From: Saccharofermentans sp.
GTDB lineage: Bacteria; Bacillota; Clostridia; Saccharofermentanales; Saccharofermentanaceae
Assembly (NCBI GenBank): GCA_024403715.1
Contig: JAKSRJ010000003.1
Span: forward strand, 1-64,000
Direction of reading: 5' to 3'
Length of the DNA: 64,000 nt
Shown: piece after piece, positions 3,609-26,823 of the stretch
Layout of the letters: the number at the start of each line of letters is the position of its first letter
How positions within the stretch are numbered: the stretch's first letter is position 1
Program-made: the position numbers and the translations under genes
The notes under the pieces: model-generated
Seen by the model: the letters and a program-made list of their open reading frames with translations, nothing else
The model's database searches: none
What the model was told of the DNA's origin: nothing

Positions 3609-3615
3609 GTATTAG

Positions 3616-5106: not shown

Positions 5107-5948
5107 TTTTGAGTATGGTACGGATTGGTTTTGTCATTCTTACATGGAATTCTGAAAAGGTAATCGATAGATGCCTTAATTCAATTGTTAAGCTTAAGCA
5201 AATTAAGCCATATGTAGTTGTAGTTGATAATGGTAGTGTGGACAATACTAATACTATAGTTGATGAGTATTCAACAAAGTATCCAGATGCATTTAAGTTA
5301 ATTCGATACAAAGCTAATAGGGGAACTACAGTATCACGTAATGCTGGAATTAGAGCATTAAGTGAATTTGAGTTGGATTATTATTGTATTCTTGATAGCG
5401 ATACTATAATCAGCGATGGTGCTTTTTTAAAACTAGCTCATGAGATGAATAGCAATCCTTCTTACGGTATCATTGGTCCTAAAATGGTTTCTTCTTCTGG
5501 TGTCGAACAGATGTCAGCAAGAGCTTTCCCAACTTTGATTGAGAAATTATATAAAGCGTTGCCTTTTAAATCATTGCAGAAAAAGGGCGAAGAAATAGAA
5601 CGTCAGTTGCCACCGAATGAGGAAATGGAAAGTTATCCTGTCGATTATTTGATGAGTGCTTGTTGGTTAATTCGACCACAAGTTATCCATACCGCAGGTT
5701 TATTGGACGAAAAATTATTCTACGCACCAGAGGATGCAGAATACTGTATCTGTGTTTGGAAGAGCGGCTATCAGGTTGCTTTTTGCTCATCTGCTCAAAT
5801 AACACATGAGTGGCAAAGATTAAGCAAAAAGAAGCTAATTAGTAAAATCAATTACGAACATATAAAGGGTTTGATTTATATGTTTTGGAAACATCAATAT
5901 CTGTTTTCTACAGCAAAATTGAAGAAAACGTTTAATGGAGACAAATGA
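5103..5948 (+). CDS. glycosyltransferase family 2
   Basis: A 281-residue GT-A fold glycosyltransferase. The N-terminus has VRIGFVILTWN, then VVVDNGSVDNT for nucleotide binding and ILDSDT as the metal-binding DxD-like motif; a later APEDAEYC segment resembles the catalytic-base region of rhamnosyltransferase-like GT2 enzymes. It should add a sugar to the lipid-linked intermediate. The reading frame begins with GTG at 5103, overlapping the upstream stop, with GGGG five bases before; an ATG at 5115 is the alternative. It ends inside the next frame's first codons. Donor and acceptor are unknown. Confidence 0.9.
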   Translation: MILSMVRIGFVILTWNSEKVIDRCLNSIVKLKQIKPYVVVVDNGSVDNTNTIVDEYSTKYPDAFKLIRYKANRGTTVSRNAGIRALSEFELDYYCILDSDTIISDGAFLKLAHEMNSNPSYGIIGPKMVSSSGVEQMSARAFPTLIEKLYKALPFKSLQKKGEEIERQLPPNEEMESYPVDYLMSACWLIRPQVIHTAGLLDEKLFYAPEDAEYCICVWKSGYQVAFCSSAQITHEWQRLSKKKLISKINYEHIKGLIYMFWKHQYLFSTAKLKKTFNGDK

Positions 5949-5949
5949 A

Positions 5950-8157: not shown

Positions 8158-9267
8158 ATGAAGAAAGTAGGCATATTTTCACGAAGAAATGTAAAATCTG
8201 CATATTCGTGTTTGTTATATCTTAAAGAAAGTCTTGAGAAGAAGTATGAAGTGCATTTATGGGCATTCACTGAGAAAAAAGATGTACCATCGCGCTATAA
8301 CTTGAATTTCCATTCGTTTGTAGAGAAATGGTATGGAAAAATCCGTTTAGCAAGAACTTATATAGCTAAGATAGAAATGTATTTTGAAGCTAAGAAATAC
8401 GATGTAATTATTATTAATGATTTGGATTTTTTCCGAATGGGATATTGGATTAAGAAAAAGCATCCTGACAAAATCGTTGTACATTACAATACTGAAATTC
8501 ATGGTATGGATGTTAGATATCCATGGCATACAGTGCATTTTTATAATGAACACGCAGATTATCCAGATATGATAATTGAATGCTTACAGGAGAGAGCAGA
8601 TTATAGGAGGAAAACGTTTAATATTCAAAAGCCGATTTACACAATCAATAACACATTGCCTAATCGAGATTTGGAGGAGTCTTTATCACATGATTTAGAC
8701 GTGGGCCAATATGTAAATTTTGATAATAGTAATCCTATAGTTGTGTACGCAGGTGGGTGCTATATGTCTCGATGTTTAGGAGATATTATTAAAGCTTCCT
8801 CGCATTTTGAAGGAATGCTTAATTTTTTGTTTTTTTGTTATGGTAAAGAAAAGGATTTCAATGTGGTAAAGATAGAATGTGCGAAACATAGTAATTGTCG
8901 CGTATTTTCTGCGGTGTCTAAAGATGTTCTATTTAATGTATTAAATAAATGTGATATTGGAATACAGTATTATGATCCTAGCATAAGTGTTAATCATTTA
9001 TATGCTTCGCCATCAAAATTTTATGAGTATATAGGATTAGGTTTGAATGTACTTAGTTCTAACAATATAGGAATTAATAGAATAATAAGTAATAATAATT
9101 TTGGTGTTTGCCTTGATAGTAATAGAACAATCCTTGACGGATTGAACGAATTGTTAGAAAAAGGATTAACAGATAAAGATAAGATAAAGAAGGCTTTCAA
9201 GGAAAAGTACTCATACGAAGTTAATGCACAGGCTTCGCTTGATAGGTTGTTTGAATTGATAGATTAA
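8158..9267 (+). CDS. glycosyltransferase, GT-B fold (family 4-like)
   Basis: A 369-residue protein that looks like a GT-B glycosyltransferase of the family 1/4 type. An N-terminal Rossmann half opens with KKVGIFSRRN. A linker and C-terminal half contain the VVYAGGCYMSR region and a SPSKFYEYIGLGLNVLSS stretch that corresponds to the donor-binding KxxEYxxxGxPV motif of such enzymes. No membrane segment is seen. AAGGGG precedes the ATG at 8158. This gene begins the visibly more AT-rich part of the locus. The donor sugar cannot be assigned. Confidence 0.82.
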   Translation: MKKVGIFSRRNVKSAYSCLLYLKESLEKKYEVHLWAFTEKKDVPSRYNLNFHSFVEKWYGKIRLARTYIAKIEMYFEAKKYDVIIINDLDFFRMGYWIKKKHPDKIVVHYNTEIHGMDVRYPWHTVHFYNEHADYPDMIIECLQERADYRRKTFNIQKPIYTINNTLPNRDLEESLSHDLDVGQYVNFDNSNPIVVYAGGCYMSRCLGDIIKASSHFEGMLNFLFFCYGKEKDFNVVKIECAKHSNCRVFSAVSKDVLFNVLNKCDIGIQYYDPSISVNHLYASPSKFYEYIGLGLNVLSSNNIGINRIISNNNFGVCLDSNRTILDGLNELLEKGLTDKDKIKKAFKEKYSYEVNAQASLDRLFELID

Positions 9268-9338
9268 TTTATTATTTTAAAGAATAGTATATCAATGACG
9301 AATTGGTTTATTATACGAATGAGGAAAACTGATATCAA

Positions 9339-10526
9339 ATGAGAGTAGGTATTTTTGGAATTCTAGGAGTCTATAATTTTGGCTGTGAAGCAATAGTAAG
9401 AGGAGCATGTCAGTTTATAAAAGATGTGTATCCTGATAGTGAGATAGTTTATTTTTCACGTTCTATACAATATGACTCAAAAGTATTATCAGATTTAAAT
9501 ATTACAATTGAACCTGTGATAGAAAGTAAATCGATACTAAAAAGAATTAGCAATAAAGCCAGTCAGTTTTTTTGCTATAACAAAAGATTTTTATTATTTG
9601 ACTATAAAAGAATAATTGATAATGTTGATGTCATTGTGTCTGTTGGTGGAGATATCTATACAATACCTCAAAAGGTGAGGCAGAATAGTAGATATCAATA
9701 TTACAATTATTTGGTGGATTTTTGTGATAGGGCAATTTCAAAAGGCAAACAAGTGGTAGTGTATGGAGCCTCTGTTGGGCCATGGGGTAATTACAGGAAA
9801 GCTGTAGATTATTATGTAAATGCTTTAAACAAGTATAAATTCATTTTGTGTAGAGAGGAAGAAACTATCAAGTATCTGCAGAAGTTGGGTTTACATAATA
9901 CTATTTTTTTTCCAGATCCGGCATTTCGTATACGTAAAGTTAATCCAACATCGGATAAAAAATATATAGGTATTAATCTATCACCTCTATCTTTTAAAGA
10001 GTTTTTTGGAAACTATGGAAATCATTATGTTAATAATTTAGCAAAAATAATAGATCTTGTTTATGAAAAGACTGGCAAAAGAATTCTTTTTATTCCTCAT
10101 GTTTTATCGCCAGATGAAAGTGACAATGATAGTTTGTTTTTAGAAAAAATTAAATCCTATATGCAATATGCTGATAAGGTGTTATTTGCAGATACAACTC
10201 GTGGTTTTATCGGGGTGAAGGACATGATGTCACAATGTTACTTGGTTGTGGCTGCAAGAATGCATTGTGCAGTGAATGCTATTGATGAAAATATACCTGC
10301 AATCTTTTTGTCATATAGTCAAAAAAGCATAGGAATGTGTAAATATGTTTATGGAGATGATACTTTTTTAGTCGGGCTTGATGATATAGATGATAAGTTA
10401 ATAGAAACAATAATGGCAATGCTTAATCAGCAAGATGAATTAATAAGAAGAATAACTAGTAGAAATATTGAAATTGAAAATTACTACTACGATAACATCG
10501 AGAAGATAAAAGAATTAATCAAATAG
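9339..10526 (+). CDS. polysaccharide pyruvyl transferase family protein
   Basis: A 395-residue protein of the CsaB/WcaK-type polysaccharide pyruvyltransferase family, which places a pyruvate ketal on a glycan sugar using phosphoenolpyruvate. Recognisable features are the N-terminal GIFGILGVYNFGCEAI segment, SVGGDIYT, YGASVGPWG, ILCREEETI and the AARMHCAVNA segment near residue 310. Some members instead act as glycosyltransferases, so the reaction is not certain. The 71-base gap upstream is the longest in this part of the locus. It holds GAGG at 9321-9324, fourteen bases from the ATG, which is a poor spacing and suggests weak translation. Confidence 0.87.
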   Translation: MRVGIFGILGVYNFGCEAIVRGACQFIKDVYPDSEIVYFSRSIQYDSKVLSDLNITIEPVIESKSILKRISNKASQFFCYNKRFLLFDYKRIIDNVDVIVSVGGDIYTIPQKVRQNSRYQYYNYLVDFCDRAISKGKQVVVYGASVGPWGNYRKAVDYYVNALNKYKFILCREEETIKYLQKLGLHNTIFFPDPAFRIRKVNPTSDKKYIGINLSPLSFKEFFGNYGNHYVNNLAKIIDLVYEKTGKRILFIPHVLSPDESDNDSLFLEKIKSYMQYADKVLFADTTRGFIGVKDMMSQCYLVVAARMHCAVNAIDENIPAIFLSYSQKSIGMCKYVYGDDTFLVGLDDIDDKLIETIMAMLNQQDELIRRITSRNIEIENYYYDNIEKIKELIK

Positions 10527-10543
10527 TATAAGAAAGAAGTTAT

Positions 10544-12082
10544 ATGAGAAACGATAGTCAAAGAATTGCTAAAAATACATTGTTTTTGTATTTTCGTATG
10601 CTTCTTATTATGGTTGTCAATTTATACACTTCAAGAGTTACCCTAAATGTTCTTGGAGTTGATGATTTTGGTATATACCAGACTGTTTGTGGCGTTGTGA
10701 CATTTCTTGCTTTTTTAAGTAATGCACTTGGAAGCGGAACATCAAGATTCATTACTTTTGAAATGGGAAAGGAAGAACCAAGGCTTAAAGAGCTTTTTTC
10801 TACAGTGAGAATAGCACACCTTGTATTAGGCGTAATCATTGTAATATGTGGTGAGTTAATCGGTTTGTGGGCAATTAATAACAAGTTAGTTATTCCAGCT
10901 GAAAGGTTAAATGCTGCTATTTTTGCTTTTCATTTTTCTATGGTGGCAACTTTTTTTCAAATTACTCAAGTGCCATATAATGCCATTATCATCGCATATG
11001 AAAGAATGAATGTATATGCATATGTAAGCATTTTAGAGGCTATTGGAAATCTTGGGATAGTTTATTTGTTAGATATACTATTTTTTGATAAGTTAGAGCT
11101 CTATTCAGTTTTAATGTTTATTGTAATAGTAACCATTATGATGACCTATAGAATATATTGTAGAAAGCAGTTCGAAGAAGTACGATCAAATTTGGTATTT
11201 GAAAAAGATTTGTTTAAAAGTATAGCTTCATTTGCTGGTTGGAATTTATTAACAAGTTCAGCGAGCTCTTTGGCAAATCAGGGCGTGACAATAGTAACAA
11301 ATGTATTCTTTAACCCTGCTGTAGTTACGGTAAGAACTCTAGCCTTAAAGATAAATAATATAATTAATACTTTCATAGGAAATTTTAGAACAGCAGTCAA
11401 TCCTCAGATAATTAAAAAATATGCTTCAGATGATTTTGAAGGTTCAAAGAAGCTGGCTTTAGAATCAACGAAATATACTTACTATCTTATGTTGGTAATT
11501 GTAATGCCAGTATTTTTTCTTGTAGAGCCTGCCCTTAAGATTTGGTTAGGAGAGGTGCCAGAGGGCCTAGAATTATTTGTAGAACTTACTTTGATACAAG
11601 GATTATTTCAAGCAATAGATACTTCTTTGTATGCTCCAATTTATGCAAAAGGAAGAATAAAAGAAAACGCAATTATATGTCCTTTATTTGAGTCATTGCA
11701 GCTTCCAATAATCTATTTTCTATTCAAAAGAGGGGCTCCACCAATAACCTTGGCTTGGGTTGAACTTGGAGCATATATTATTCTAGCTGTCGTCATAAAG
11801 CCAATTTTGGTTCATTTAATAGCAAAGTATAATTATTGGGATACTATTAAGATGTTGATTTCTTGTGGTGTTATTACAGTAGTATCAATTATTATTCCGG
11901 TTCTTGTTAGAATAGTATTAACTCCGAATACTGTTATTGGTTTTATTTCAATTGGATTCGCGTGCGAGCTTTCCTTAGGATTAGTTATATGGTCAATTGG
12001 TTTAGATAAAAATATGAAGGTCATGCTGATTCAGATTTTAAAGCATAAGTTAAATAGTAAAGGTGTTGGATTTTATGATTGA
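10544..12082 (+). CDS. Wzx-type oligosaccharide flippase (MATE/PST superfamily)
   Basis: A 512-residue polytopic membrane protein with about 12-14 hydrophobic segments spread over its whole length. The N-terminus has NTLFLYFRMLLIMVVNLYTS and a GVDDFGIYQTV segment, a typical RfbX/Wzx opening. It should move the undecaprenyl-pyrophosphate-linked repeat unit across the membrane. It lies between glycosyltransferase-type genes and modification genes, and its end overlaps the start of the next gene by eight bases. No Wzy polymerase or Wzz-like regulator is nearby, so what happens after flipping is unclear. Confidence 0.9.
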   Translation: MRNDSQRIAKNTLFLYFRMLLIMVVNLYTSRVTLNVLGVDDFGIYQTVCGVVTFLAFLSNALGSGTSRFITFEMGKEEPRLKELFSTVRIAHLVLGVIIVICGELIGLWAINNKLVIPAERLNAAIFAFHFSMVATFFQITQVPYNAIIIAYERMNVYAYVSILEAIGNLGIVYLLDILFFDKLELYSVLMFIVIVTIMMTYRIYCRKQFEEVRSNLVFEKDLFKSIASFAGWNLLTSSASSLANQGVTIVTNVFFNPAVVTVRTLALKINNIINTFIGNFRTAVNPQIIKKYASDDFEGSKKLALESTKYTYYLMLVIVMPVFFLVEPALKIWLGEVPEGLELFVELTLIQGLFQAIDTSLYAPIYAKGRIKENAIICPLFESLQLPIIYFLFKRGAPPITLAWVELGAYIILAVVIKPILVHLIAKYNYWDTIKMLISCGVITVVSIIIPVLVRIVLTPNTVIGFISIGFACELSLGLVIWSIGLDKNMKVMLIQILKHKLNSKGVGFYD

Positions 12083-13895
12083 GATAAAGGACAAAAAGGA
12101 TTGTTGTGGCTGTAATGCTTGTGGTGATATATGTCCCAATAATGCTATTGATTTTTCAACAGATATAGAAGGTTTTTGGTATCCTACAGTTAATCAATCT
12201 AAATGTATAGGATGTGGACTGTGTAATAATATTTGTCCGGTAATTACTCAATGCAAATCGAAAAATGTGAATGATAAAAAACCAGTGTGTTATGTGGCTG
12301 AGCATAGAAGTGTGGAAGTAGTTTTTTCAAGTACTTCAGGAGGTATGTTTTCTGCCTTAGCAGAGTATATGTACAGCCATAATGGTTATGTTGGTGGTGC
12401 AGTTCATAATGAGGATTTTTCTGTATCGCATTTTATTTCTAATTCTAAAGCTGACTTAAAGAGACTTAGAAGATCAAAAGATCTTCAGAGTAATGCTGAA
12501 GGTTTCTATAAGGAAGTTAAGGGAATACTAGATGCTGATAAAGGGGTGCTTGTTTGCGGAGTTCCATGTCAGATAGCAGGATTAATTAATTATCTAGGCA
12601 AGGATTACGATAATCTAGTTACGATTGACTTAATATGTGCGGGGGTTAATTCACCGAAGGTATGGCGTAAGTACTTGGATTATATTGAAGAACTTAATAG
12701 TTCCCATATTATTTGGACTGAGAATAAATCAAAGGAGTACGGCTGGAATAATCTTACCCAGAAATTTATCTTTGAAGACGGAAAGGAGTATTTTGATACT
12801 CGAAAAACTAGTTTATTTACTCATGGATATATAGAGTCACACTTATACTGTCGACCATCCTGTTATGATTGCAGGTTTAAAGGGTTTCCAAGAGTATCAG
12901 ATATTACAATTGGTGATTTTTGGGGGATAACAAATTACAGCAATAATTACAATTCCGATATGGGCACATCTTTGGTGTTGATTAATTCAAAAAAAGGAAA
13001 GGATTACTTTGAATTAATCAAAAAGAGAATTAACTACGAAGACGCTGATTTAGATTGGGCTTTATCAGGAAATCCCGCGCTTAGTAGTTCAATATCTATT
13101 CTTTCTGATAAAAGAACAGAATTCTTCTCTGATTTAGATAACTTACGATTTGATCAATTGATTGAAAAATACTCGGTTAGTAAGAAATCTCATATAAAAA
13201 CTTACTTAAGGAAATTAAAAAAGAAATTGGGGTTTATTAGACGTGTAGTCAATACAACTCGTTTAAATCCAGTTGCTTTGTATCAAACTATTAAATATAG
13301 TGGCATTAAGAATTTACTTAAGGGAAAAGGTATTCTTTGTGGTACGAACTCTCATATTAAGATTGATAAAACCGCTGATCTGGAATTTGAAGGTGTTTTG
13401 ACTTTTGGAAGAAAAGAGAAGTTCGTTAGAAGCAAACAGGAATCAAGATTATTTGTTGGGAAGAATGCTACCTTTAAGGTGCTTGGAGACTTTGAAATTG
13501 ATTCTGATTGTGAATTAGTTGTCTTTGAAAATGCAGAGCTAATAATTCATGGTGGAAAGCATAGTGGAAGTGATGCCAATACGGGGTTATGCATAATATG
13601 TGGTGAAAAAATAGAAATACTGAGCGATGTTGGAATTGGAAGAAAAGTTACAATTCGTGATACCAATGGTGCTAGTCATTATATTAATACAACTGGATAT
13701 AGACCATCACGACCGATAGAAATAGGGGAAAAAGCATGGATTTGCGAAGCTGCAACAATTATGCCTGGTGTGAAAATTGGGCGAGGTGCTATTGTAGGTG
13801 GGTGCTCTATGGTAACAAAATCTGTCCCAGCGCATGCTATGGTTTCAGGTATCCCTGCTTGTGTAGTTCAGGAAAACGTTTTATGGAAATGGTAG
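12075..13895 (+). CDS. fusion: ferredoxin/FrhB-type oxidoreductase plus hexapeptide acyltransferase
   Basis: A protein of about 606 residues joining two activities. The N-terminal part has two 4Fe-4S ferredoxin motifs (CCGCNACGDICP and CIGCGLCNNICP) followed by the coenzyme F420 hydrogenase/dehydrogenase beta-subunit domains, with VCGVPCQIAGL and CYDCRFKG cysteines (to about residue 340). The C-terminal part (about 390-606) is a left-handed beta-helix acyltransferase ending in the GVKIGRGAIVGGCSMVTKSVP pattern typical of WbbJ/maltose acetyltransferase-like enzymes. The start is ATG 12075, with GGTG nine bases ahead; a GTG at 12063 is less likely. FrhB-like proteins are common in glycan loci with unclear redox roles. 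A fused acyltransferase suggests consecutive steps on one sugar. Confidence 0.85.
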   Translation: MIEIKDKKDCCGCNACGDICPNNAIDFSTDIEGFWYPTVNQSKCIGCGLCNNICPVITQCKSKNVNDKKPVCYVAEHRSVEVVFSSTSGGMFSALAEYMYSHNGYVGGAVHNEDFSVSHFISNSKADLKRLRRSKDLQSNAEGFYKEVKGILDADKGVLVCGVPCQIAGLINYLGKDYDNLVTIDLICAGVNSPKVWRKYLDYIEELNSSHIIWTENKSKEYGWNNLTQKFIFEDGKEYFDTRKTSLFTHGYIESHLYCRPSCYDCRFKGFPRVSDITIGDFWGITNYSNNYNSDMGTSLVLINSKKGKDYFELIKKRINYEDADLDWALSGNPALSSSISILSDKRTEFFSDLDNLRFDQLIEKYSVSKKSHIKTYLRKLKKKLGFIRRVVNTTRLNPVALYQTIKYSGIKNLLKGKGILCGTNSHIKIDKTADLEFEGVLTFGRKEKFVRSKQESRLFVGKNATFKVLGDFEIDSDCELVVFENAELIIHGGKHSGSDANTGLCIICGEKIEILSDVGIGRKVTIRDTNGASHYINTTGYRPSRPIEIGEKAWICEAATIMPGVKIGRGAIVGGCSMVTKSVPAHAMVSGIPACVVQENVLWKW

Positions 13896-13902
13896 GTTGA
13901 GC

Positions 13903-15048
13903 GTGAAGGTACTTATTATTGGCGGTATGGGGCTTATTGGCGGTGCAATATCTAGAGCTGCAGTCAGAAAACAGCTGGATGTTTATATCGTAAGCAGAAG
14001 AAAACTTTTTGGCGAATGGCTGGGTGGTGGCATTCATGAACTGTGTGGTGATTGGAAAGACGATTCATTTGCTAAAAGTGTTGTAGAGGTTGGATTTGAT
14101 GTTATTGTTGATACACAGATATTTACAGAAAAGCAGTTAGAGCGAGCTGTGCGTATTATTGATGGTCATTGTAAGCATTTTATTTATATTTCTACAGACT
14201 CTGTTTATATCCATCCAGCAGATAATATTGATGAAGACAACGCTATTAATCTTTCAGAATTAAAATGGAAGTACGGGTATGATAAGAGAAAAGCTGAGTT
14301 GTTTTTATTTAATCATGGTTCAGAATATAGTTTTATGTGGTCAGTAATTAGGCCAACTATTACTTTTGGCGAAACAAGGATTCCTGTAGGTTTTTCTTCT
14401 AAGAGAAATACATATACAATTGCTAAACGTATAATTGATGGGAAACCGATTGTTTGTTTTGATGATATGAGTACTAGACATTCAGTGTGTCACGAATCGA
14501 TTTTTGGTGCGGCAGCTGTCGAATTATTTTTAAATGAGAGCGCATACAATCAATGCTATCATATTTCCGATGATTACTCTTTTACATATTCAGAAATTTT
14601 TGAAGCGATAGAGAACGTATTAAATGTAAGAGGAATTTATATAAAATGTGATACTGCTATACTTAAGAAGTATAGCAAAAATATTTACGAAGAGATGATA
14701 TATGATAAAAACCCTCATTTTACTCTTAATAATAAAAAGATAAAATCAATTGCGCCCGACATAAGTTTTCATATTAATATTGAAACTGTTATGAAAGCTA
14801 CGTTAGTACATCTAGCGTGTGAATCAAATGAGGATCAAGAGTATAATTTACTTACAGATTGTATTCTCTTGCATGTATATAAAAGTCATAAAACGGAGGA
14901 TACACAACTTGCAAAGTATATTGAAGGATTGAATGAATCTTATGTCATTCAACTTAAAAAGTTTGAGAGACAAATGATTATAAAAAATATGGTTGATATA
15001 GCCAAGGGGGCGTTAAGGCCGATTAAACGACTAATAATGCCATATTAA
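13903..15048 (+). CDS. NAD(P)-dependent sugar epimerase/dehydratase-like SDR
   Basis: A protein of about 381 residues with an extended-SDR fold. The dinucleotide-binding motif GGMGLIGG is near the N-terminus. FIYISTDSVYI supplies the active-site Ser/Thr strand and YGYDK the Tyr-xxx-Lys catalytic pair; VIRPTITFG follows. It probably oxidises, reduces or epimerises a nucleotide sugar. The tail beyond about residue 290 is longer than usual and not recognised. I choose GTG at 13903, six bases after GGTAGG; a TTG at 13897 is adjacent to that site and less likely. It lies directly upstream of the carrier protein gene. Confidence 0.83.
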   Translation: MKVLIIGGMGLIGGAISRAAVRKQLDVYIVSRRKLFGEWLGGGIHELCGDWKDDSFAKSVVEVGFDVIVDTQIFTEKQLERAVRIIDGHCKHFIYISTDSVYIHPADNIDEDNAINLSELKWKYGYDKRKAELFLFNHGSEYSFMWSVIRPTITFGETRIPVGFSSKRNTYTIAKRIIDGKPIVCFDDMSTRHSVCHESIFGAAAVELFLNESAYNQCYHISDDYSFTYSEIFEAIENVLNVRGIYIKCDTAILKKYSKNIYEEMIYDKNPHFTLNNKKIKSIAPDISFHINIETVMKATLVHLACESNEDQEYNLLTDCILLHVYKSHKTEDTQLAKYIEGLNESYVIQLKKFERQMIIKNMVDIAKGALRPIKRLIMPY

Positions 15049-15067
15049 TGGTAAAGGGGAAATAATA

Positions 15068-15292
15068 ATGGTTACTTCTGAGCAGTTTTTAAAAGATTTT
15101 AAAAGTTTATTATCTACAAATGAGGATATCACTTTTGATACAGATTTACTTGAAATTGATGGTTGGGACTCCTTTAGTGCCATGGCATTTTTAGCCATGA
15201 TAGACGAGAAATATGGCATAAAGGCTGAACCTTTTGCAGTTGCAGAATCAATATTTGTGGAAGATTTATATAGTATTGTATCAAATACCTAA
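15068..15292 (+). CDS. acyl/peptidyl carrier protein of the glycan locus
   Basis: A 74-residue four-helix carrier protein. Ser35 in the GWDSFSAM motif is the expected phosphopantetheine attachment site; the following acidic helix (MAFLAMIDEKYG) is typical for docking to partner enzymes. It would carry the acyl or aminoacyl group activated by the adenylation enzyme encoded directly downstream. Its neighbours (adenylation enzyme, type II thioesterase, membrane acyltransferase) argue against a fatty-acid-synthesis role. No phosphopantetheinyl transferase is encoded in the window, so a house enzyme must modify it. Confidence 0.92.
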   Translation: MVTSEQFLKDFKSLLSTNEDITFDTDLLEIDGWDSFSAMAFLAMIDEKYGIKAEPFAVAESIFVEDLYSIVSNT

Positions 15293-15311
15293 TATCAATG
15301 GAGGAAATGTT

Positions 15312-16826
15312 ATGAATCGTCTTATAACTGAATATTTGGAAAAGACTGCTGTAACTTTCCCTGATAAGATTGCATTCATTGATCAGAATAGAGAGATTAC
15401 ATTTTCCAATTTACGGAAAGAGGCGTTAAGTATCGCAGGAAAACTTATAGAAAAGGGATATTATAAGCAACCAGTATTACTGTTTATGGAGAAGAGTATC
15501 TCATTAATAAGTTGCTTTTTAGGAGTAGCGTATTCTGGTAATTTTTATTCACCAATCGATACTAAAATGCCTACCGCGAGAATAGAAAAAATAATAGCCA
15601 CCTTAAAGCCTGCTGTAGTAATAACAGATAACAAGCATAAAGATCAGGTGGTTCAGTTTGTCTCTAATTGTGATGTTTGGCTTTTTGAAGATATGATTGA
15701 AAAACAAGTTGTGGATGTATCATCTGTCTTTTCTATCACCAATAGGATAATTGATACAGATATTTTGTATGTTCTTTTTACTTCAGGTTCAACAGGGATA
15801 CCCAAAGGAGTGATTATTAATCACAAAGCAGTGATTGATTTTGTTGATTGGATATCTGATTGCTATGGTTTTGATGAGACAACGGTTTTAGGAAATCAAG
15901 CACAGCTATACTTTGATTTATCTATTCAGGATGTTTATGTTCCTATAAAAACAGGTGCTACAACAGTTTTAATCTCGAATAGAATGTATACGGCTCCTGT
16001 AAGAGTTTGGAAAACTATATTGAAATACCAAGTTAATACTTTAGTTTGGATTCCTTCAATGCTAAGCTTATTTGCTAATCTAGATATACTTAGAAATGTT
16101 GAGAAGGGCAAACTTAAAACGGTTCTATTTTGTGGCGAAGTAATGCCTATGAAGCAGTTAAATTATTGGATTAAAGAATATCCTGATGTAGTTTATGGTA
16201 ATCTATATGGTCCTACTGAGTGCACGGAAGCATGCACATATTACACTGTTGATCGTGGCTTTAGTGACGATGATGTTTTACCAATAGGAAAACCATGTGA
16301 GAATTCCGATGCCATGATAATTGCTGACGATGGCAGAATAATTGATTCTCCAGGCGAGATAGGTGAACTTTACATAAAGGGAACTTGCTTGAGCAGTGGA
16401 TATTATGGAGATTGGGATAAAACAAATGAGGTTTTTGTTCAGAATCCATTAAATAACCAGTATCCAGAGATGGTATATAAAACTGGAGATTTGGTGTGCC
16501 TTAATGAGTATCATGAGCTCGTCTATGTAAGTAGAAAGGATAATCAAATTAAAATTAGAGGATATAGAGTTGAGTTGGGGGAAATTGAGGCGGTTGTGTC
16601 TTCAATGCCTAATATTAATTATAACTGTTGTTTGTTTGATTCCATAGATGAAAAGATAATTCTAGTGTATACAGGTGATGTAACTGAAGAGGAGTTAAAT
16701 TCTAGCTTAGAAAAAAAACTTCAACATTATATGATTCCTTCTCAATATATTAAGCGGGATGAAATGCTTTTTAATATCAATGGAAAAGTTGATAGACAAG
16801 CATTGGCCAATATGTATTTATCATAA
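15312..16826 (+). CDS. stand-alone adenylation enzyme (DltA/NRPS A-domain-like)
   Basis: A 504-residue ATP-dependent adenylating enzyme. Core motifs are FTSGSTGIPKG (phosphate-binding loop), QLYFDLSIQDVY, NLYGPTECTE, KTGDL, KIRGYRVELGE and the C-terminal NGKVDRQAL lysine. It should activate a carboxylic or amino acid as an adenylate and load the carrier protein upstream. Cys274 in LFCGEVMP appears to correspond to the Cys that helps DltA prefer D-alanine, so D-alanine or a similar small amino acid is a plausible substrate (inference). The ATG at 15312, after a GGAGG-type site (15300-15304), is preferred over a longer frame that would overlap the carrier gene. Confidence 0.88.
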   Translation: MNRLITEYLEKTAVTFPDKIAFIDQNREITFSNLRKEALSIAGKLIEKGYYKQPVLLFMEKSISLISCFLGVAYSGNFYSPIDTKMPTARIEKIIATLKPAVVITDNKHKDQVVQFVSNCDVWLFEDMIEKQVVDVSSVFSITNRIIDTDILYVLFTSGSTGIPKGVIINHKAVIDFVDWISDCYGFDETTVLGNQAQLYFDLSIQDVYVPIKTGATTVLISNRMYTAPVRVWKTILKYQVNTLVWIPSMLSLFANLDILRNVEKGKLKTVLFCGEVMPMKQLNYWIKEYPDVVYGNLYGPTECTEACTYYTVDRGFSDDDVLPIGKPCENSDAMIIADDGRIIDSPGEIGELYIKGTCLSSGYYGDWDKTNEVFVQNPLNNQYPEMVYKTGDLVCLNEYHELVYVSRKDNQIKIRGYRVELGEIEAVVSSMPNINYNCCLFDSIDEKIILVYTGDVTEEELNSSLEKKLQHYMIPSQYIKRDEMLFNINGKVDRQALANMYLS

Positions 16827-16841
16827 GTGGAGCTAGATGAT

Positions 16842-17531
16842 GTGAAAAAGAGAATTCAATTATTTCTTCTTCCTTTCGCTGGGGGAAGTTCGTTATCTTT
16901 TATGCGTCTGACAAGGTTTTTAGATCCTTCTATCGAAGCGATTACAATTGAGTATTCTGGAAGGGGTACACGCCGAGATGAGAATTGTATTGCTGATTAT
17001 TGGATGTTTGTAAATGATGTTGTACTACAAATAAAAAAGAACAGGAATACGAGCATTCCTTATGCAATTCTTGGCTATAGTATGGGTAGTGTAATTGAAT
17101 ATGATATTTTACGTAATTGTGATTTCGACCAAGGTCCCAAGCATTGTTTTTTTTGCGCCGAAGGTGGTTTGATTGAGCCGAGTAAAGTTAGGCAAATAAG
17201 CGAGTTGGATGATAATGATTTTTTGGGGATTATTCGTTCTCTTGGAGGAATAGATGACAGATTGTTTTGTAATAAGGATGCATTTGATGAGTATCTTGAT
17301 TTGATAAGAAATGATTTTAATATATTGCGTCAATTCAAATATGACGGAGGTCAGATAAATCACGACATAACTGTTATTTATGGTGATAATGATGGAACGT
17401 GTGTCAATATGGATGATTGGGAGAAAGTAACAACAGCTAGCGTAGAACTTGTTGTTGTTGAAGGTAATCATTTTTTTATTAATCAGAGATATAAAGAGAT
17501 AGCACAAATGATTAATGAAAAAATAGTGTGA
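16842..17531 (+). CDS. type II thioesterase (alpha/beta hydrolase)
   Basis: A protein of about 229 residues related to the GrsT/SrfAD external thioesterases that clear wrongly loaded carrier proteins or release their cargo. The opening LLPFAGGSSLSF forms the oxyanion region. The nucleophile Ser lies in GYSMGS, where the usual GHSMG has Tyr for His. The acid is in IYGDNDGT and the His in VEGNHFF. I choose GTG at 16842, nine bases after GGAG; an in-frame GTG at 16827 abuts the previous stop. Its place next to the carrier and adenylation genes supports a role in carrier-bound cargo editing or transfer. Confidence 0.86.
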   Translation: MKKRIQLFLLPFAGGSSLSFMRLTRFLDPSIEAITIEYSGRGTRRDENCIADYWMFVNDVVLQIKKNRNTSIPYAILGYSMGSVIEYDILRNCDFDQGPKHCFFCAEGGLIEPSKVRQISELDDNDFLGIIRSLGGIDDRLFCNKDAFDEYLDLIRNDFNILRQFKYDGGQINHDITVIYGDNDGTCVNMDDWEKVTTASVELVVVEGNHFFINQRYKEIAQMINEKIV

Positions 17532-17565
17532 ATGAATAAAAGATTCGTTAAATACGGAGAAAAGA

Positions 17566-18621
17566 ATGACATTAAATATATTTTTAATGCTACTGTTTGG
17601 ATTAATACTATATAGCTGCTTAAAGAATTGTTTGTTTAATAGTAGTGAATGCAATTCTTTCTCGATAGAAAGTACAGAATCTCTTCGTGGAATTGCAACA
17701 GTGATTATAATAATGTCTCATATTGCTCAATATGAGACATCATTTGAGAACGTAGTAATCGGAGGAGAGATAACTAGAAGTTTTGTTCTGACATGGGGTG
17801 GTGTAGGGGTTTCTCTCTTTTTTTTGCTTTCTGGATTTGGTTGTTACTTGTCTATTAATAAATCGTCAGCACCACTAATTTGGAGTGTAAAACATGCAAT
17901 AAGGGTAATATTTCATTTTATAGTAGTATATATTATAGTCATTCTCTCCTCGGTTTTATTTTTGAAAGAAGAGAAAAATATAGGAAGTATACTCGTTAAT
18001 TTTCTTTTATTGAGAATACCCAACTCGACAACCTGGTATCTTAAGGCTCAAATTCTTTTTTATCTAATACTTGGAGTAAGTGTAGTGATATCTAGAAAAC
18101 AGTCACATACATTAGTAATATTAGGTGTCACCCTTTATGCTTTGATAGGTAAATTTTTATTATGCTTATCTGATTTTTGGTGGAAAACCTCATTATGTTT
18201 TGCAGCTGGCTGTTGTATTGCTAAATACAAGGTTGTTTTATTAAGTTGTATCAGTAAGATATATGTAAGAACCATCATTGTTTTGCTAGGCGCAATCGCT
18301 TATGTTTGTGTTATAAACGATTATCAATACAGGTTGCTTATTCAATTGCCAGCGTATGTGTTAGTAGCTTTCTCGATTGTTGAGTTATGGAATTGGATTG
18401 GAAGAAAAAGTGAATTTTATAGCAAAACAGGTCAAATCTCACTTGATTTATATCTCGTTCATATAGCTTATGTTGAAGCTGTATTTGGATTAAACATTAA
18501 TGTAAATATCAAATTTTTGTTTTTTTTATTGTTAATAATTGTTGAGTCCGTGATATCGTATTGTATCTCAGAGAAACTATATAAATTTTTCAATAGCAAA
18601 CTTATAACACTCAATAGTTAG
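17566..18621 (+). CDS. membrane acyltransferase, Acyltransferase-3 family
   Basis: A 351-residue integral membrane protein with about ten hydrophobic segments, of the family that acylates surface glycans (for example O-acetylation of O-antigen and Nod factor). The motif ESLRGIATVIIIMSH carries the conserved Arg and the His proposed to be catalytic. A cytoplasmic donor usually supplies the acyl group. Here the carrier protein, adenylation enzyme and thioesterase next to it suggest a carrier-bound rather than CoA-bound donor, which would be unusual. It is the last gene of the AT-rich island. GGAG precedes the ATG. Confidence 0.87.
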   Translation: MTLNIFLMLLFGLILYSCLKNCLFNSSECNSFSIESTESLRGIATVIIIMSHIAQYETSFENVVIGGEITRSFVLTWGGVGVSLFFLLSGFGCYLSINKSSAPLIWSVKHAIRVIFHFIVVYIIVILSSVLFLKEEKNIGSILVNFLLLRIPNSTTWYLKAQILFYLILGVSVVISRKQSHTLVILGVTLYALIGKFLLCLSDFWWKTSLCFAAGCCIAKYKVVLLSCISKIYVRTIIVLLGAIAYVCVINDYQYRLLIQLPAYVLVAFSIVELWNWIGRKSEFYSKTGQISLDLYLVHIAYVEAVFGLNINVNIKFLFFLLLIIVESVISYCISEKLYKFFNSKLITLNS

Positions 18622-18676: not shown

Positions 18677-19780
18677 ATGAAGAAAGTGATGTTGGTTTTT
18701 GGCACTAGACCTGAAGCTATCAAAATGTGTCCACTCGTAAACGAGTTAAAAAAGAGAGAAACAATTGAAACTATTGTATGCGTAACTGGTCAGCACCGTC
18801 AGATGTTAGATCAGGTTCTCGATACATTTCATGTTGTTCCAGATTATGACCTTTCTATTATGAAGAGTGGTCAAACTCTTTTTGACATTACAACAGGAAT
18901 TCTTGAGAGTATTAAAATGGTTCTTGAAGAGGTCAAGCCTGATGTATGTCTTGTACACGGCGATACCTCCACAACATTCGTGACTGCACTAGCAAGCTTC
19001 TACCTGCAGATTCCTGTAGGCCATGTTGAAGCAGGCCTTCGTACATATAATATTTACTCGCCATATCCGGAAGAGTTTAACCGTCAGGCTGTTGGCATCA
19101 TAAGCAAGTTCAATTTCGCTCCGACTGAGCTTGCAAAGAAACACCTTCTTGATGAGGGGAAGAATCCTCAAAGTATCTATGTAACTGGTAACACAGTTAT
19201 CGATGCTATGCAGCATACTGTAGTCGAAGATTATCATCATCCGGAACTGGATTGGGTTGGTGATGGAAGAATGATTTTTATTACTGCTCATAGAAGAGAG
19301 AACCTTGGGGAGCCGATGCATAATATGTTTCGTGCAATCCGTCGAGTTCTTAACGAGCATCCTGACGTTAAGGCTATTTATCCAATCCATATGAATCCTG
19401 AAGTTCGTAAAGCTGCAGATGAAGAACTGGGCGACTGCGATCAGATTCATATCATTGAACCGATTGAAGTATTCGATTGCCACAACTTTGAGGCAAGATG
19501 CCATTTGTGTCTGACTGATTCAGGTGGAATACAGGAAGAGTGCCCTTCTTATGGTAAGCCGGTTCTAGTTATGAGAGATACCACAGAAAGACCGGAAGGT
19601 GTAGAAGCAGGCACATTAAAGCTTGTTGGAACAAGCGAAGATACCATCTATGAATGGTTCACTAAGTTACTCGATGACGAGAAAGAATATGCAAAGATGG
19701 CTCATGCAGCCAATCCTTATGGTGATGGTCATGCATGCGAACGTATCGCAGATATTCTGGAAGAGCAATTGAATAAGTGA
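18677..19780 (+). CDS. wecB: UDP-N-acetylglucosamine 2-epimerase (non-hydrolysing)
   Basis: A 367-residue GT-B fold epimerase interconverting UDP-GlcNAc and UDP-ManNAc, which feeds ManNAc or ManNAcA into surface glycans. Recognisable segments are LVFGTRPEAIKMCPLV, VTGQHRQMLD, VHGDTSTTF, VEAGLRTYN, FITAHRRENLG and LTDSGGIQEE. The family length matches. I choose ATG 18677, with GAGG nine bases upstream; the longer frame from 18626 starts at a TTG and adds a non-conserved stretch. Base composition here returns to that of the housekeeping genes, so this gene may belong to the stable flank rather than the exchanged island. Confidence 0.95.
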   Translation: MKKVMLVFGTRPEAIKMCPLVNELKKRETIETIVCVTGQHRQMLDQVLDTFHVVPDYDLSIMKSGQTLFDITTGILESIKMVLEEVKPDVCLVHGDTSTTFVTALASFYLQIPVGHVEAGLRTYNIYSPYPEEFNRQAVGIISKFNFAPTELAKKHLLDEGKNPQSIYVTGNTVIDAMQHTVVEDYHHPELDWVGDGRMIFITAHRRENLGEPMHNMFRAIRRVLNEHPDVKAIYPIHMNPEVRKAADEELGDCDQIHIIEPIEVFDCHNFEARCHLCLTDSGGIQEECPSYGKPVLVMRDTTERPEGVEAGTLKLVGTSEDTIYEWFTKLLDDEKEYAKMAHAANPYGDGHACERIADILEEQLNK

Positions 19781-20793: not shown

Positions 20794-22131
20794 GTGAAAA
20801 GTCACGGTAACGTACAACAGCGTAATCACAAGGTTCGCGGAATAACAGAAAAGAAGGGTAGCCTTGCAGCTATCGTTGTAGTTTTAATCGTAGCGGCAGT
20901 AATCGTTGGCTCATACTTTTTCTACAAACATTACCTCACAGAGAAGATTATTCCTGAGGTTACTATCGAGTCTGGTACTCCAATCGATATCAATTCATTT
21001 ATTACTGAGCAGCGCGCAGATGCTTTCTTTGTAACTGATGTTACTCAAATAGATCCCAATATTCCTGGAAGCTACGGAATTAAGGTTAGTGTAGGTGATA
21101 TCGTGGTTGTTACTAGAGATGTAATTCTCAATATCGTGGATACTACAGCACCTACAGCAAATCCAGTACCACAGACCATTTTTACTGACACTATTCCATC
21201 CGCTGATACAGTAGTTACAGATATTGTTGACCTAGCTTCTGTTACTATCGAATATGCTGAGCCTATGGGCGAGACAATCGAAGCTGGCGAGCGCGATATT
21301 CCTGTAAGAATCACAGATGCTTATGGCAATGAGAACATCATTTATGTGCCTTTCGTAATTATCGAAGATTACGAAGCTCCTGTAATTAATGGTGCACATA
21401 ACTTCGAGTCGTTTATCGGCGAGCCGATTATGTATTTTGACGGTGTAACAGCTACTGATAACTATGATCCTAATCCTACGCTCGATGTTGATAATTCTCA
21501 GGTAGTTGTTACTGAAGAGGGTACATATCCTGTAACTTATACTGCTACTGATGCTCATGGTAACCAGAGCGAAGTTACCATTAAGATTACACTTAGAATC
21601 AGACCTGAACGCTACTACGAGCCAGAAGAAATTTATGAACTTGCTCGTGAGACAATCGAACTCTATGACATCTGTGATGAATCCATGTCTGATTATGAGA
21701 TTACAATGAGAATCTTCGCATGGGTAAGCCAGAATATCAGATACCAGATGGACTCTGATAAGTGTGACTGGACTGCAGGCGCTTATGACGGACTCGTCAC
21801 ATTAAGAGGTGATTGCTATAACTATATGGCTGTATCTCGTGCGATGTTGGGGGCTATGGGAATTGAATCTATCACTATCGAGCGCTATCCGATTAATGTT
21901 TCTTCACACTATTGGAACTTAGTAAATATCGATGGACAGTGGTATCACTGCGATGCATGCGTATTCCTCAACATGACGGACATTACTTATATCTGCTGTA
22001 GAACAGATGCTGAACTTGATCCAGGTAACAATAGTTACGATGTAGAGACTTTGCCTGAAGGCGTTGTAGTTGCAACTGAGTCCATTCAGGACATGTTTGA
22101 TTTTGAAAACCTAAGCATGAGAGTTCAGTAA
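20794..22131 (+). CDS. membrane-anchored transglutaminase-like protein with Ig-like domains (copy 1)
   Basis: A 445-residue protein with a basic N-terminus and one membrane anchor (about residues 28-47), so the rest faces outside. Residues about 55-270 contain repeated beta-sandwich segments with DxTAP/DYEAP-type joints similar to bacterial Ig-like or HYR domains. The C-terminal transglutaminase-like domain has a Cys-His-Asp triad: Cys341 in RGDCYNYM, His372 in SSHYWNL, Asp387 in WYHCDACV. The GTG start is preceded by GAGGTGG at 20783-20789. It is followed without a gap by a paralogue. Such proteins cross-link, cleave or bind peptides at the surface; here the link to the Dlt-like genes suggests a wall-polymer or peptidoglycan partner. 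Confidence 0.87.
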   Translation: MKSHGNVQQRNHKVRGITEKKGSLAAIVVVLIVAAVIVGSYFFYKHYLTEKIIPEVTIESGTPIDINSFITEQRADAFFVTDVTQIDPNIPGSYGIKVSVGDIVVVTRDVILNIVDTTAPTANPVPQTIFTDTIPSADTVVTDIVDLASVTIEYAEPMGETIEAGERDIPVRITDAYGNENIIYVPFVIIEDYEAPVINGAHNFESFIGEPIMYFDGVTATDNYDPNPTLDVDNSQVVVTEEGTYPVTYTATDAHGNQSEVTIKITLRIRPERYYEPEEIYELARETIELYDICDESMSDYEITMRIFAWVSQNIRYQMDSDKCDWTAGAYDGLVTLRGDCYNYMAVSRAMLGAMGIESITIERYPINVSSHYWNLVNIDGQWYHCDACVFLNMTDITYICCRTDAELDPGNNSYDVETLPEGVVVATESIQDMFDFENLSMRVQ

Positions 22132-23493
22132 ATGAAGAAGCATAGTGAGAACAATACTAAGCCTTCAGCTACTCGTCGTAAGGTGAAAAGTAATAAGCGA
22201 TCCAAAACTAAAAAGACACGTATTATCGTGTACTCAATAGCAGGCATCCTTGCAGCTCTTTTAATCACTACAACAATTTGTATTAATTACCTTGGTAAGC
22301 AGCGTGATAAGATTATTCGCGAGGTTACAATCGAACTTCAAGACCAGATTAGACTCGAAGATTTCTTTACTGAGATGCTTCCAGATGCGAGGTTTTATAC
22401 TGATGTTTCTGGAATAGATACAAGCATTCCAGCTTCATATCAGCTCATTGTGGAGGCTAAGGAATTCCGCTATATCTCTATTCGTCAGCCAGTTGTTCTT
22501 AATGTAGTGGATTTGGTTGCACCAACTGGTGAAGCGGTTCCACAGCGTATTTATACTTATAATCTTCCTGATGTTAACGATGTAGTGACTAACGTTTATG
22601 ATTTAACACCAGTTACTATTGCTTATGTAGGTGAACCAGATGTAAGCAGAAGTGGTTCATATGAGATTCCAGTTTCTCTTACAGATACTTCAGGGAATGT
22701 GACTATTATTAATGTTCCTTTTGAGATTATTGATGATCATATCGCGCCACTTATTAGAGGTGCACATGATTTTGAGGCTTTCATTGGCGACCCAATTCAG
22801 TACTTAAATGGAATCACGGTTACTGATAATATCGATCCTAATCCTGATCTTTATGTAGATACTTCTAACGTTAATACTCATATCTCATCTACATTCCCTG
22901 TAACTTATATCGCTACAGATGAGAATGGTAATACCTCTTCTGTTACTGTTAACATGAGACTTCGTGTTAAGCCTGAGCGTTACTATGAGCCAGAGGAAGT
23001 TTATGATTTGTGCCGTCAGGCTATCGAGATTTATCACATCTTTGATGAGGATATGACAGATGTAGAGAAGGCGTTCCGAATAGTTGATTGGTGCTACAAC
23101 CATTTAAGCTTTATTGGAACTTCTGATAAGTCTCACTGGACTACAGCAGTCTATGATGGACTAACTACACTTCAGGGTGACTGCTTTACATATTGGGCGA
23201 TTGTTAAGGCAATGCTTGATGTGTGTGGCATTCCTAATTATCAGGTTACACGTAACCCAATCACATGGTCACCTCATTACTGGAACTTGGTTTATCTTGA
23301 GGGCCAGTGGTACCACTGTGATTCCTGTTATGCATACTATCACGAGGGATATTTCTTTATGTATTCTGACTCAGATTTGCCACCAGGATCTCATACATAT
23401 GATCCAGCAGATTTGCCAGCTGGTATCGTACCTGCAACAGAGTCAATTCAGTACAGAGTTAATTACACGACATTGGAGGTAGCAGACACATGA
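22132..23493 (+). CDS. membrane-anchored transglutaminase-like protein with Ig-like domains (copy 2)
   Basis: A 453-residue paralogue of the preceding gene, with the same plan: a Lys/Arg-rich start, a membrane anchor (about residues 30-50), Ig-like segments and a transglutaminase-like domain. The triad is Cys351 in QGDCFTYW, His382 in SPHYWNL and Asp397 in WYHCDSCY. The spacings (31 and 15 residues) are the same as in copy 1. Shared segments such as the RPERYYEPEE/KPERYYEPEE joint confirm duplication. The start codon directly follows the stop of copy 1, and its stop overlaps the adenylation gene (ATGA), so all are translated from one message. Confidence 0.88.
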   Translation: MKKHSENNTKPSATRRKVKSNKRSKTKKTRIIVYSIAGILAALLITTTICINYLGKQRDKIIREVTIELQDQIRLEDFFTEMLPDARFYTDVSGIDTSIPASYQLIVEAKEFRYISIRQPVVLNVVDLVAPTGEAVPQRIYTYNLPDVNDVVTNVYDLTPVTIAYVGEPDVSRSGSYEIPVSLTDTSGNVTIINVPFEIIDDHIAPLIRGAHDFEAFIGDPIQYLNGITVTDNIDPNPDLYVDTSNVNTHISSTFPVTYIATDENGNTSSVTVNMRLRVKPERYYEPEEVYDLCRQAIEIYHIFDEDMTDVEKAFRIVDWCYNHLSFIGTSDKSHWTTAVYDGLTTLQGDCFTYWAIVKAMLDVCGIPNYQVTRNPITWSPHYWNLVYLEGQWYHCDSCYAYYHEGYFFMYSDSDLPPGSHTYDPADLPAGIVPATESIQYRVNYTTLEVADT

Positions 23494-24989
23494 TGAGAAG
23501 TGTAGTCGAATATCTAGATATAACAGCTAAGAAATATCCAACTAAGGTTTGCTATCGTGATGAGAAGACCGCGTTAACCTTTGAAGATGTTTATAATCAG
23601 TCTCGCCTTGCAGGTTCTTTCTTACTTGGCGAAGGACTTTGCCGTGAAGCTGTAGCAGTTTATATGTCCAAGACTCCAAGCGAGCTTGCAGCTTTTATTG
23701 CTGTTCTTCAAGCGGGATGTTTCTATGTACCTATCGATGATGAGATGCCTTCAAAAAGAATCGAGCTTATCTTCGATAACTTAAAGCCACGTGCTGTTAT
23801 CTGTGATGAAGAGACACGTGAAAACGCTTCTAAGTTTGCAGGTAGCGCGAAGGTTTATTCTTGGGATGAGATTAAGAATTCTGCTATTAATGAAGAGGCT
23901 TTAACTCAGGTTCAGAAAACTAGAATTGATACTGATCTCGCATATATTATGTATACTTCAGGTTCTACAGGTATTCCTAAGGGTGTTGCAGTTTGCCACA
24001 GAAGCTTAATTGATTATATTGAGTCCTTCTGTGATGTTATGAAGTTTGATGAGGAGACTATATTTGGTTCCCAGACACCATTTTATTTTGACGCTTCTTT
24101 GAAGGATATTTACCCAACGCTTAAGTGTGGTTGCGAGACTGTAATTGTTCCTCATAGCCTTTTTATGTTTCCTATTAAACTCACAGAGTTTTTGAATGAA
24201 TATAAAATCAACACTCTTTGCTGGGTAGTATCTGCGCTTACTATGATTTCAGCATTTGGCGTTCTCGATGAGAATCCACCTAAGTATTTAAAGATAGTTG
24301 GCTTCGGAGGCGAAGTTTTCCCTATCAAGCAGTATAAGAGATGGAAGAAAGCTCTCCCTGATGTTAGATACATAAACCTCTATGGCCCAACTGAGACTAC
24401 TGGTGTATCTATGTACTACGAGGTTGACAGAGACTTTGAAAAAGATGAGGCTATCCCTCTTGGTAAGGCATTTGAGAACGTAGATATTTTCCTTTTGGAT
24501 GAAGATAACAAGCTTTCTACAGAAGGTGAGATTTGCATGCGTGGAACCGCAGTTACTATGGGTTACTATAATGACTTCGGTAGAACTAGCGAAGCCTTCG
24601 TTCAGAACCCACTTAACGACAAGTATCCTGAGATTATCTACCGCACAGGCGACCTTGCTCGTATTAATGAGAGAGGCGAGATGGTATTTGTCTCACGTAA
24701 GGATTTTCAGATTAAGCATATGGGACACAGAGTTGAGTTAGGTGAGATTGAAGCTGACGTTAACTCTATCGAGGGCGTGTCTGCATCCTGCGCAGTGTAT
24801 CTTAAGAAAAAGGACCGAATTGAGTTATACTATGAAGGTGGGCCTGAGGAAGGTGACTTAACTAATATGCTTAAAGAGAGACTTCCTCGATATATGGTTC
24901 CAACTAAGGTTAATAAGATGGATAAGCTTCCACTAACACCTAATGGTAAGCTTGATCGTAAGGGTTTAACTGCTCTATCTGAAAAGTAA
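23490..24989 (+). CDS. stand-alone adenylation enzyme of the Dlt-like operon
   Basis: A 499-residue adenylating enzyme of the DltA/NRPS A-domain class. Motifs are MYTSGSTGIPKG, FYFDASLKDIYP, NLYGPTETTG, RTGDLARI, KHMGHRVELGE and NGKLDRKGL. It should load the carrier protein encoded ten bases downstream. At the position where DltA-like enzymes have Cys in FCGE (Cys274 in the adenylation enzyme at 15312-16826), this protein has Gly273 in GFGGEVFP, so its substrate may differ from D-alanine (inference). The start ATG overlaps the upstream stop and has GGAGG ten bases ahead. It is similar in length and motif order to DltA but should not be named dltA without a test. Confidence 0.88.
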   Translation: MMRSVVEYLDITAKKYPTKVCYRDEKTALTFEDVYNQSRLAGSFLLGEGLCREAVAVYMSKTPSELAAFIAVLQAGCFYVPIDDEMPSKRIELIFDNLKPRAVICDEETRENASKFAGSAKVYSWDEIKNSAINEEALTQVQKTRIDTDLAYIMYTSGSTGIPKGVAVCHRSLIDYIESFCDVMKFDEETIFGSQTPFYFDASLKDIYPTLKCGCETVIVPHSLFMFPIKLTEFLNEYKINTLCWVVSALTMISAFGVLDENPPKYLKIVGFGGEVFPIKQYKRWKKALPDVRYINLYGPTETTGVSMYYEVDRDFEKDEAIPLGKAFENVDIFLLDEDNKLSTEGEICMRGTAVTMGYYNDFGRTSEAFVQNPLNDKYPEIIYRTGDLARINERGEMVFVSRKDFQIKHMGHRVELGEIEADVNSIEGVSASCAVYLKKKDRIELYYEGGPEEGDLTNMLKERLPRYMVPTKVNKMDKLPLTPNGKLDRKGLTALSEK

Positions 24990-25004
24990 AAAGGAGATAT
25001 GACT

Positions 25005-25232
25005 ATGGAAGATTTAATTGAGATTTTGAAGGACCTTCATGCTGATGTTGACTACGATACATGCGAGACATTGATTGACGACAAGATTCTTGATTCTTTT
25101 GATATTGTTTCTATCGTATCTGAAGTAGATGACAAGTTTGACGTGGCTATCCCCGCTAAGGAACTTATCCCTGAGAACTTTAATTCTGCTAAGGCTCTCT
25201 GGGCATTAATCGAGAGACTAATGGAGGACTAA
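25005..25232 (+). CDS. carrier protein of the Dlt-like operon (DltC-like)
   Basis: A carrier protein of about 75 residues. The phosphopantetheine Ser is in LDSFDIVSIV (Ser31 from this start), with an acidic docking helix after it. The motif DSFD resembles DltC. I prefer ATG 25005, eight bases after AAGGAG, over ATG 24999, which is only two bases from it. The stop overlaps the first base of the MBOAT gene, so the two are translationally coupled. It should hand the activated group to the MBOAT protein. Confidence 0.92.
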   Translation: MEDLIEILKDLHADVDYDTCETLIDDKILDSFDIVSIVSEVDDKFDVAIPAKELIPENFNSAKALWALIERLMED

Positions 25233-26812: not shown

Positions 26813-26823
26813 GGAGGAATGAC

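Follow-up and report, generated by a model that had tools for sequence, protein, structure and literature searches.

AlmEFG glycinylates lipid A in Vibrio, with an adenylation enzyme, a carrier and a transferase serving a surface glycolipid. In the Dlt system (DltA, DltC, DltB and DltD), a stand-alone amino-acid adenylation enzyme and a separate carrier also work in the pathway of a cell-surface polymer. VexE, an LPLAT-type enzyme of the Vi antigen pathway, acylates the capsule sugar nucleotide in an acyl carrier protein (ACP)-dependent manner, from beta-hydroxyacyl-ACP (PMC9597891). Elements of nonribosomal peptide synthetases (NRPSs) assist in coupling an amino acid with an amino sugar in lincosamide synthesis (PMC4351081). 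For membrane proteins of the Acyltransferase-3 (AT3) family, in vitro work favors acyl-CoA, and not ACP, as the donor (PMC9558356). Here we analyzed a stretch of 64,000 nucleotides from Saccharofermentans sp. (GCA_024403715.1, contig JAKSRJ010000003.1, positions 1 to 64,000; the window, from here on), in which genes for a carrier protein, an adenylation enzyme, a type II thioesterase and an AT3 protein follow each other in a surface-glycan cluster. A first-pass annotation had suggested that these four genes serve to (amino)acylate the glycan from a carrier-bound donor by means of the AT3 protein. Of these, the carrier and adenylation genes form the end of a conserved module of five (Wzx, FrhB-hexapeptide fusion, short-chain dehydrogenase/reductase [SDR], carrier and adenylation enzyme), which is a more interesting finding than the four-gene unit. 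A carrier-bound aminoacyl supply to the glycan is likely, because the pairing of an amino-acid-type adenylation enzyme with a carrier is conserved in glycan loci at nine further places; the AT3 protein as the transferase is the part of the proposal that the comparison does not support.

As in Dlt, the adenylation enzyme stands alone and the carrier is separate, but the partners in the module are the fusion and the SDR. No BLAST match to MBOAT (DltB-like) or DltD-like proteins appeared in the nine orthologous loci, and those of the window belong to a second operon (23490-28095). VexE uses a carrier-bound acyl donor on a capsule sugar nucleotide, a kind of donor that is likely for the locus too, whereas the window has a dedicated carrier, an amino-acid adenylation enzyme and another class of transferase. 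Lincosamide synthetase differs in serving an antibiotic pathway, and AlmEFG in its transferase family and acceptor; both are likened to the module by description, not by sequence. If our reading is correct, the module is a further gene arrangement by which an amino acid moves from a carrier to a surface sugar, beside the Dlt type and the also known Alm type.

A conserved five-gene module in glycan loci

The five module genes and the two that follow them in the window are these:

10544..12082, + strand, putative Wzx-type flippase, first gene of the module (named from a reading of the sequence; BLAST orthologs)
12063..13895, + strand, FrhB_FdhB_C/ferredoxin protein with a fused left-handed beta-helix (hexapeptide) acetyltransferase domain (PF04432, PF00132)
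13897..15048, + strand, extended SDR, sugar-nucleotide epimerase/reductase-like (PF01370)
15068..15292, + strand, carrier protein (PF00550)
15312..16826, + strand, stand-alone amino-acid adenylation enzyme (PF00501, TIGR01733)
16827..17531, + strand, type II thioesterase (PF00975)
17566..18621, + strand, AT3 membrane protein (PF01757)

The last four are real genes, open, on the same strand, tightly packed and all above the curated cut-offs of their families. The other 187 genomes of the order have nine more places with an ortholog of the adenylation enzyme (58 to 65% identity, the next class reaching at most 43%), spread over eight genomes, all belonging to the same genus as the window. We read the neighborhoods of all nine, and eight show the order Wzx, fusion, SDR, carrier and adenylation enzyme, although in L057 two other open reading frames (ORFs) separate Wzx from the fusion; on L027, a contig of only 3,080 bases, what is present is the last part of the SDR gene, followed by the carrier and adenylation genes. 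Wzx has BLAST orthologs (60 to 64%) in all of these loci except the short L027. Full-length orthologs of the fusion (64 to 68%) number eight others in the 188 genomes, every one of them beside the adenylation enzyme, and close orthologs of the SDR (44 to 50%) are found at the same eight places. Carrier orthologs (60 to 71%) were recovered in the seven loci tested by BLAST and two further ones by translation (that of L058 from a gap), and the serine for phosphopantetheine attachment is present in the carriers of all 10 loci.

What lies behind the adenylation enzyme is different from place to place. An AT3 protein (PF01757) is found there in L057 and a pyruvyl transferase in L055, while the remaining module loci have unrelated-looking ORFs or ORFs on the opposite strand (the contigs of L027 and L059 end within ca. 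0.9 kb and ca. 0.45 kb of the adenylation gene). None of the nine places has the thioesterase. A search of genome contigs with the adenylation alignment, by two short generic motifs, gave no member of the clade among the matches listed (best 46%), and it sets no bound on the range of the module outside the order. In the literature accessible to our search, from which most subscription papers are missing, we found neither a module of FrhB-hexapeptide, SDR, carrier and adenylation genes nor an AT3 protein fed by a carrier.

The carrier scores 22.2 bits with PF00550 (cut-off, 20.8), and there is one candidate phosphopantetheinyl transferase in the genome (PF01648, 63.9 bits). The adenylation enzyme passes PF00501 (207.5 bits; cut-off, 29.9) and the amino-acid adenylation family TIGR01733 (333.1; cut-off, 317.4) and stays below both DltA cut-offs (303.2 of 476 for NF003417 and 290.0 of 559.85 for TIGR01734); we do not class it as a DltA, though its action may be similar. 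Its predicted pocket is D L Q W L C L E A K, acidic toward its end, in eight of the 10 clade members. L060 has D A Q W L C L D A K, and L061 is gapped at the cysteine and was counted as such. The count covered 60 proteins plus the two enzymes of the window and thus only part of the 80 loci of the scan, since ORFs of at least 700 amino acids were dropped. In DltA, an Asp binds the amino group and a Cys excludes L-Ala and selects D-Ala (PMC8972799). By our own alignment, the Asp and Cys of the pocket would correspond to these residues, the other positions being different, and because of this match our guess for the substrate is a small amino acid. The L061 ortholog (2239-3693) lacks ca. 16 residues around the pocket cysteine and may be a broken gene or an assembly error.

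In a FastTree phylogeny of 62 sequences, the clade has a support of 1.0 and joins L081 and then L077, L087 and L092 (supports of 0.85 to 0.86). These nearest enzymes have other partners, MBOAT proteins in L077 and L092 and ketosynthase III in L081 and L087. This shows a larger pool of carrier-loading enzymes whose downstream partners vary. In L087 (3417-11829) and L081 (7621-10578) the related adenylation enzymes lie amid ketosynthase III genes (PF08541/PF08545), L087 having also an SDR (PF13561) and FrhB-like and pyruvyl-transferase-like ORFs, which suggests that in these loci the carrier-bound amino acid may be extended before its transfer to a sugar. Another observation concerns L092, where a formyl transferase gene (10559-11425; PF00551, 73.1 bits) follows the adenylation enzyme (46% identity to that of the window), upstream of the carrier and MBOAT genes.

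Proposed fate of the carrier-bound group and two probable local additions

We favor, with some reserve, a scheme in which the module supplies a carrier-bound aminoacyl group for the glycan and the thioesterase and AT3 protein are local additions, the latter fed by acyl-CoA and independent of the carrier. The adenylation enzyme would activate a small amino acid and load it on the carrier. The aminoacyl group would then be transferred to a sugar or to a lipid-linked one, most likely while this is still in the cytoplasm; a candidate for the step is the hexapeptide acyltransferase domain of the fusion, which would act as a soluble enzyme ahead of export. Judging from its family, the NRPS-type thioesterase, added in this genome, would hydrolyze wrongly loaded carrier, and the added AT3 protein would O-acylate the exported glycan from acyl-CoA without involvement of the carrier.

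The hexapeptide domain is the only acyltransferase-like part that is kept across the full-length module loci. The fusion scores 75.9 bits with PF04432 and 28.1 with PF00132, the best PDB match of its C-terminal domain is galactoside O-acetyltransferase (1kqa), and H539 is invariant in all nine sequences.

The thioesterase is a stand-alone protein of 234 amino acids (PF00975, 87.8 bits; cut-off, 26.4) with GYSMG, the GxSxG motif, at residue 83. Its GTG start codon comes right after the adenylation stop codon, with no base between, and this coupling supports a plausible proof-reading role on the carrier. Homologs (E ≤ 1e-8) exist in 9 of the 115 genomes of the family, including its own, and in none of the eight other module genomes. 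Among module loci the thioesterase is local to the window genome.

The AT3 protein, whose gene starts 34 bases past the thioesterase stop, is a PF01757 member by score (69.2 bits; cut-off, 31). For studied members, three motifs have been reported, R/K-X10-H in the first transmembrane segment, VxxFFx[IVL]SG[FWY], and RxxR in the first cytoplasmic loop (PMC9558356). Like OafA/B, OatA and ExoZ, the protein of the window has the first (R-X10-H at R41) and the second (VSLFFLLSGF, residues 82 to 91) and is encoded in a glycan locus; unlike them, it has carrier genes as neighbors and lacks RxxR, which is also absent from the AT3 proteins of L057 and L069. By its Pfam score we call it a PF01757 protein, but, with RxxR missing, not a typical OafA/OacA-type member. 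No homolog was found at E ≤ 1e-15 in the 187 other genomes of the order, and only one at E ≤ 1e-12 in 397 sampled genomes from elsewhere in the phylum (L069, 33% identity), too few for a wider survey of the subfamily. The L069 homolog is within a polysaccharide cluster in which BLAST detected neither carrier nor adenylation enzyme nor thioesterase. Searched against PDB sequences, the AT3 protein of the window had no match at E ≤ 1.

We also surveyed the ORFs of 91 loci, the 90 with related adenylation enzymes (L027, L054 to L062 and L070 to L149) and L069, with home-made profiles for AT3 (from 18 of 30 AT3 loci) and thioesterase (from 13 proteins). The AT3 profile, which is weaker than that of Pfam and may miss AT3 proteins, matched in 5 of the 90: L057, L062 (weakly), L076, L086 (incomplete, where the contig ends, and preceded by MBOAT and DltD-like genes) and L108 (on the opposite strand). 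The thioesterase profile matched in two, L136 and L149, both actinobacterial records. By these profiles, none of the 90 loci has both. The survey, with the lack of the thioesterase in the other module loci, shows no conservation of the four genes as one unit. That the carrier genes do occur without the acyltransferase counts in part against the first-pass proposal, though the loci are glycan loci rather than a peptide-synthesis cluster.

Possible alternative roles of the AT3 protein, SDR and thioesterase

The AT3 protein could instead take the (amino)acyl group from the carrier, across the membrane, and transfer it to the glycan, with the thioesterase as proof-reader, as had first been proposed. 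Gene order and tight spacing in the window and the similar base composition of the four genes speak for this, and so does L057, where a PF01757 protein (96.4 bits) begins 6 bases past the adenylation enzyme; moreover, two of the nearest other adenylation enzymes (L077 and L092) are paired with a membrane acyltransferase, although of another class. However, no AT3 gene is found behind the adenylation enzyme at eight of the nine orthologous places (two of these eight on contigs ending soon after), the AT3 proteins of L057 and the window have no BLAST similarity at E ≤ 1e-3, the family is common (7 to 13 PF01757 matches in each of the nine module genomes), and the donors shown for AT3 proteins in a review are acyl-CoAs (PMC9558356). 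We consider a carrier-fed AT3 protein unlikely, and slightly more doubtful is the notion that it opens a DltB-independent route by which amino acids reach the exported glycan, with L057 as a second, independent case. An ordinary O-acyltransferase at the edge of the island is the most economical reading, because the family is generic, the lone homolog has no carrier genes around it and the donors are acyl-CoA; the protein is probably an optional extra, distinct from the enzyme that uses the carrier. Some points weigh against the scheme that we favor. Two of the 10 module loci (the window and L057) carry an AT3 gene at the same spot, which may mean a functional link, and the dissimilar protein of L057 keeps the carrier-fed idea alive as a possibility. 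The chance of an AT3 gene being the random next gene is roughly 0.5% (from 7 to 13 matches per genome and an assumed gene per kb), but the position in L057 cannot be called significant, because the enrichment of AT3 genes in glycan loci is an unquantified factor. The missing RxxR of the AT3 protein counts on the same side. The hexapeptide domain, for its part, resembles galactoside and maltose acetyltransferases and Vat, enzymes for which acetyl-CoA is the donor, and is not an obvious user of a carrier-bound donor. Nor does the AlphaFold model of the fusion help; it was poor (pLDDT of 53.8) and was not used. The natural occurrence of the module with and without an AT3 gene offers a clean test of whether such a protein uses a carrier-bound donor.

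A different fate for the aminoacyl group is imaginable if the SDR, whose gene immediately precedes that of the carrier in every locus read, were a thioester reductase acting on the aminoacyl-carrier. The module would then make an amino aldehyde or an amino alcohol instead of an ester or amide of the aminoacyl group. The predicted structure (pLDDT of 88.4) has a helical C-terminal extension, and Foldseek placed the terminal R domain of the myxalamid polyketide synthase-NRPS at ranks 1, 2 and 4 (best E of 7.5e-15; TM, 0.59 to 0.61). Strand 2 ends with R or K in eight of nine sequences (R in seven), which would suit NADPH. Yet epimerases in the same list have an equal or better TM (0.62 to 0.64), the best VIA-align rows are sugar-nucleotide enzymes (Z of 25.9 to 27.3), led by UDP-GlcA 4-epimerase (6zl6_A; Z of 27.3, root mean square deviation of 2.5, 280 residues aligned), the PDB sequence-profile matches are mostly sugar-nucleotide epimerases, and there is no Pfam match to NAD_binding_4. 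The absence of R domains from the 50 best of VIA-align does not count against the reductase. PF01370 gives 43 bits, and T100, Y126 and K130 are invariant in all nine sequences. On balance, a reductase seems improbable. Least probable of all, the adenylation enzyme, carrier and thioesterase would make a small diffusible nonribosomal product, their place in a glycan locus being incidental. Relatives of the thioesterase do adjoin multimodular synthetase genes in L019, L153, L154 and L155, and in L015 one is encoded immediately behind an AMP-binding enzyme, near a GNAT and a PglD-like protein; other relatives are in loci without an obvious synthetase. Against such a product, no multimodular synthetase is among the ORFs listed for positions 1 to 42000 of the window, and the flippase, fusion and SDR remain the companions of the carrier and adenylation enzyme at the orthologous places.

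SDRs in general are widespread in the order, 124 of the 188 genomes having a match to that of the window at E ≤ 1e-20. A second SDR (G000:C30:3029-4021; L187 2512-3525) has ca. 27% identity to it.

Limits of the glycan island and neighboring genes

Two features lie beyond the AT3 gene:

18626 or 18677 to 19780, UDP-GlcNAc 2-epimerase gene wecB, directly after the AT3 gene
23490-28095, Dlt-like operon (adenylation enzyme, carrier, MBOAT and DltD-like)

GC content at third codon positions is 0.22 to 0.27 over 8158-18621, i.e., through the AT3 gene, and 0.31 to 0.51 from wecB onward. Because of this step, all four genes are part of a low-GC glycan island that ends with the AT3 gene. The position at the cluster end given by the first-pass annotation holds for the island, with the correction that a UDP-GlcNAc 2-epimerase gene comes directly behind; the Dlt-like operon, said to be 3 kb away, starts ca. 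4.9 kb beyond the AT3 end. Promoter-like sites were no more numerous than in shuffled sequences, and six terminator-like sites were found versus 4.1 expected, one of them within the thioesterase gene (16866-16888), and no operon boundary was derived from them. Within the glycan cluster there is also a B12-binding radical SAM protein (5935-7416; PF02310, PF04055). At 20794-28095, two transglutaminase-like genes precede the adenylation enzyme/carrier/MBOAT/DltD-like operon, and a transglutaminase-like gene is found ahead of the Dlt-like operon in L062, L070, L074, L078 and L111 as well.

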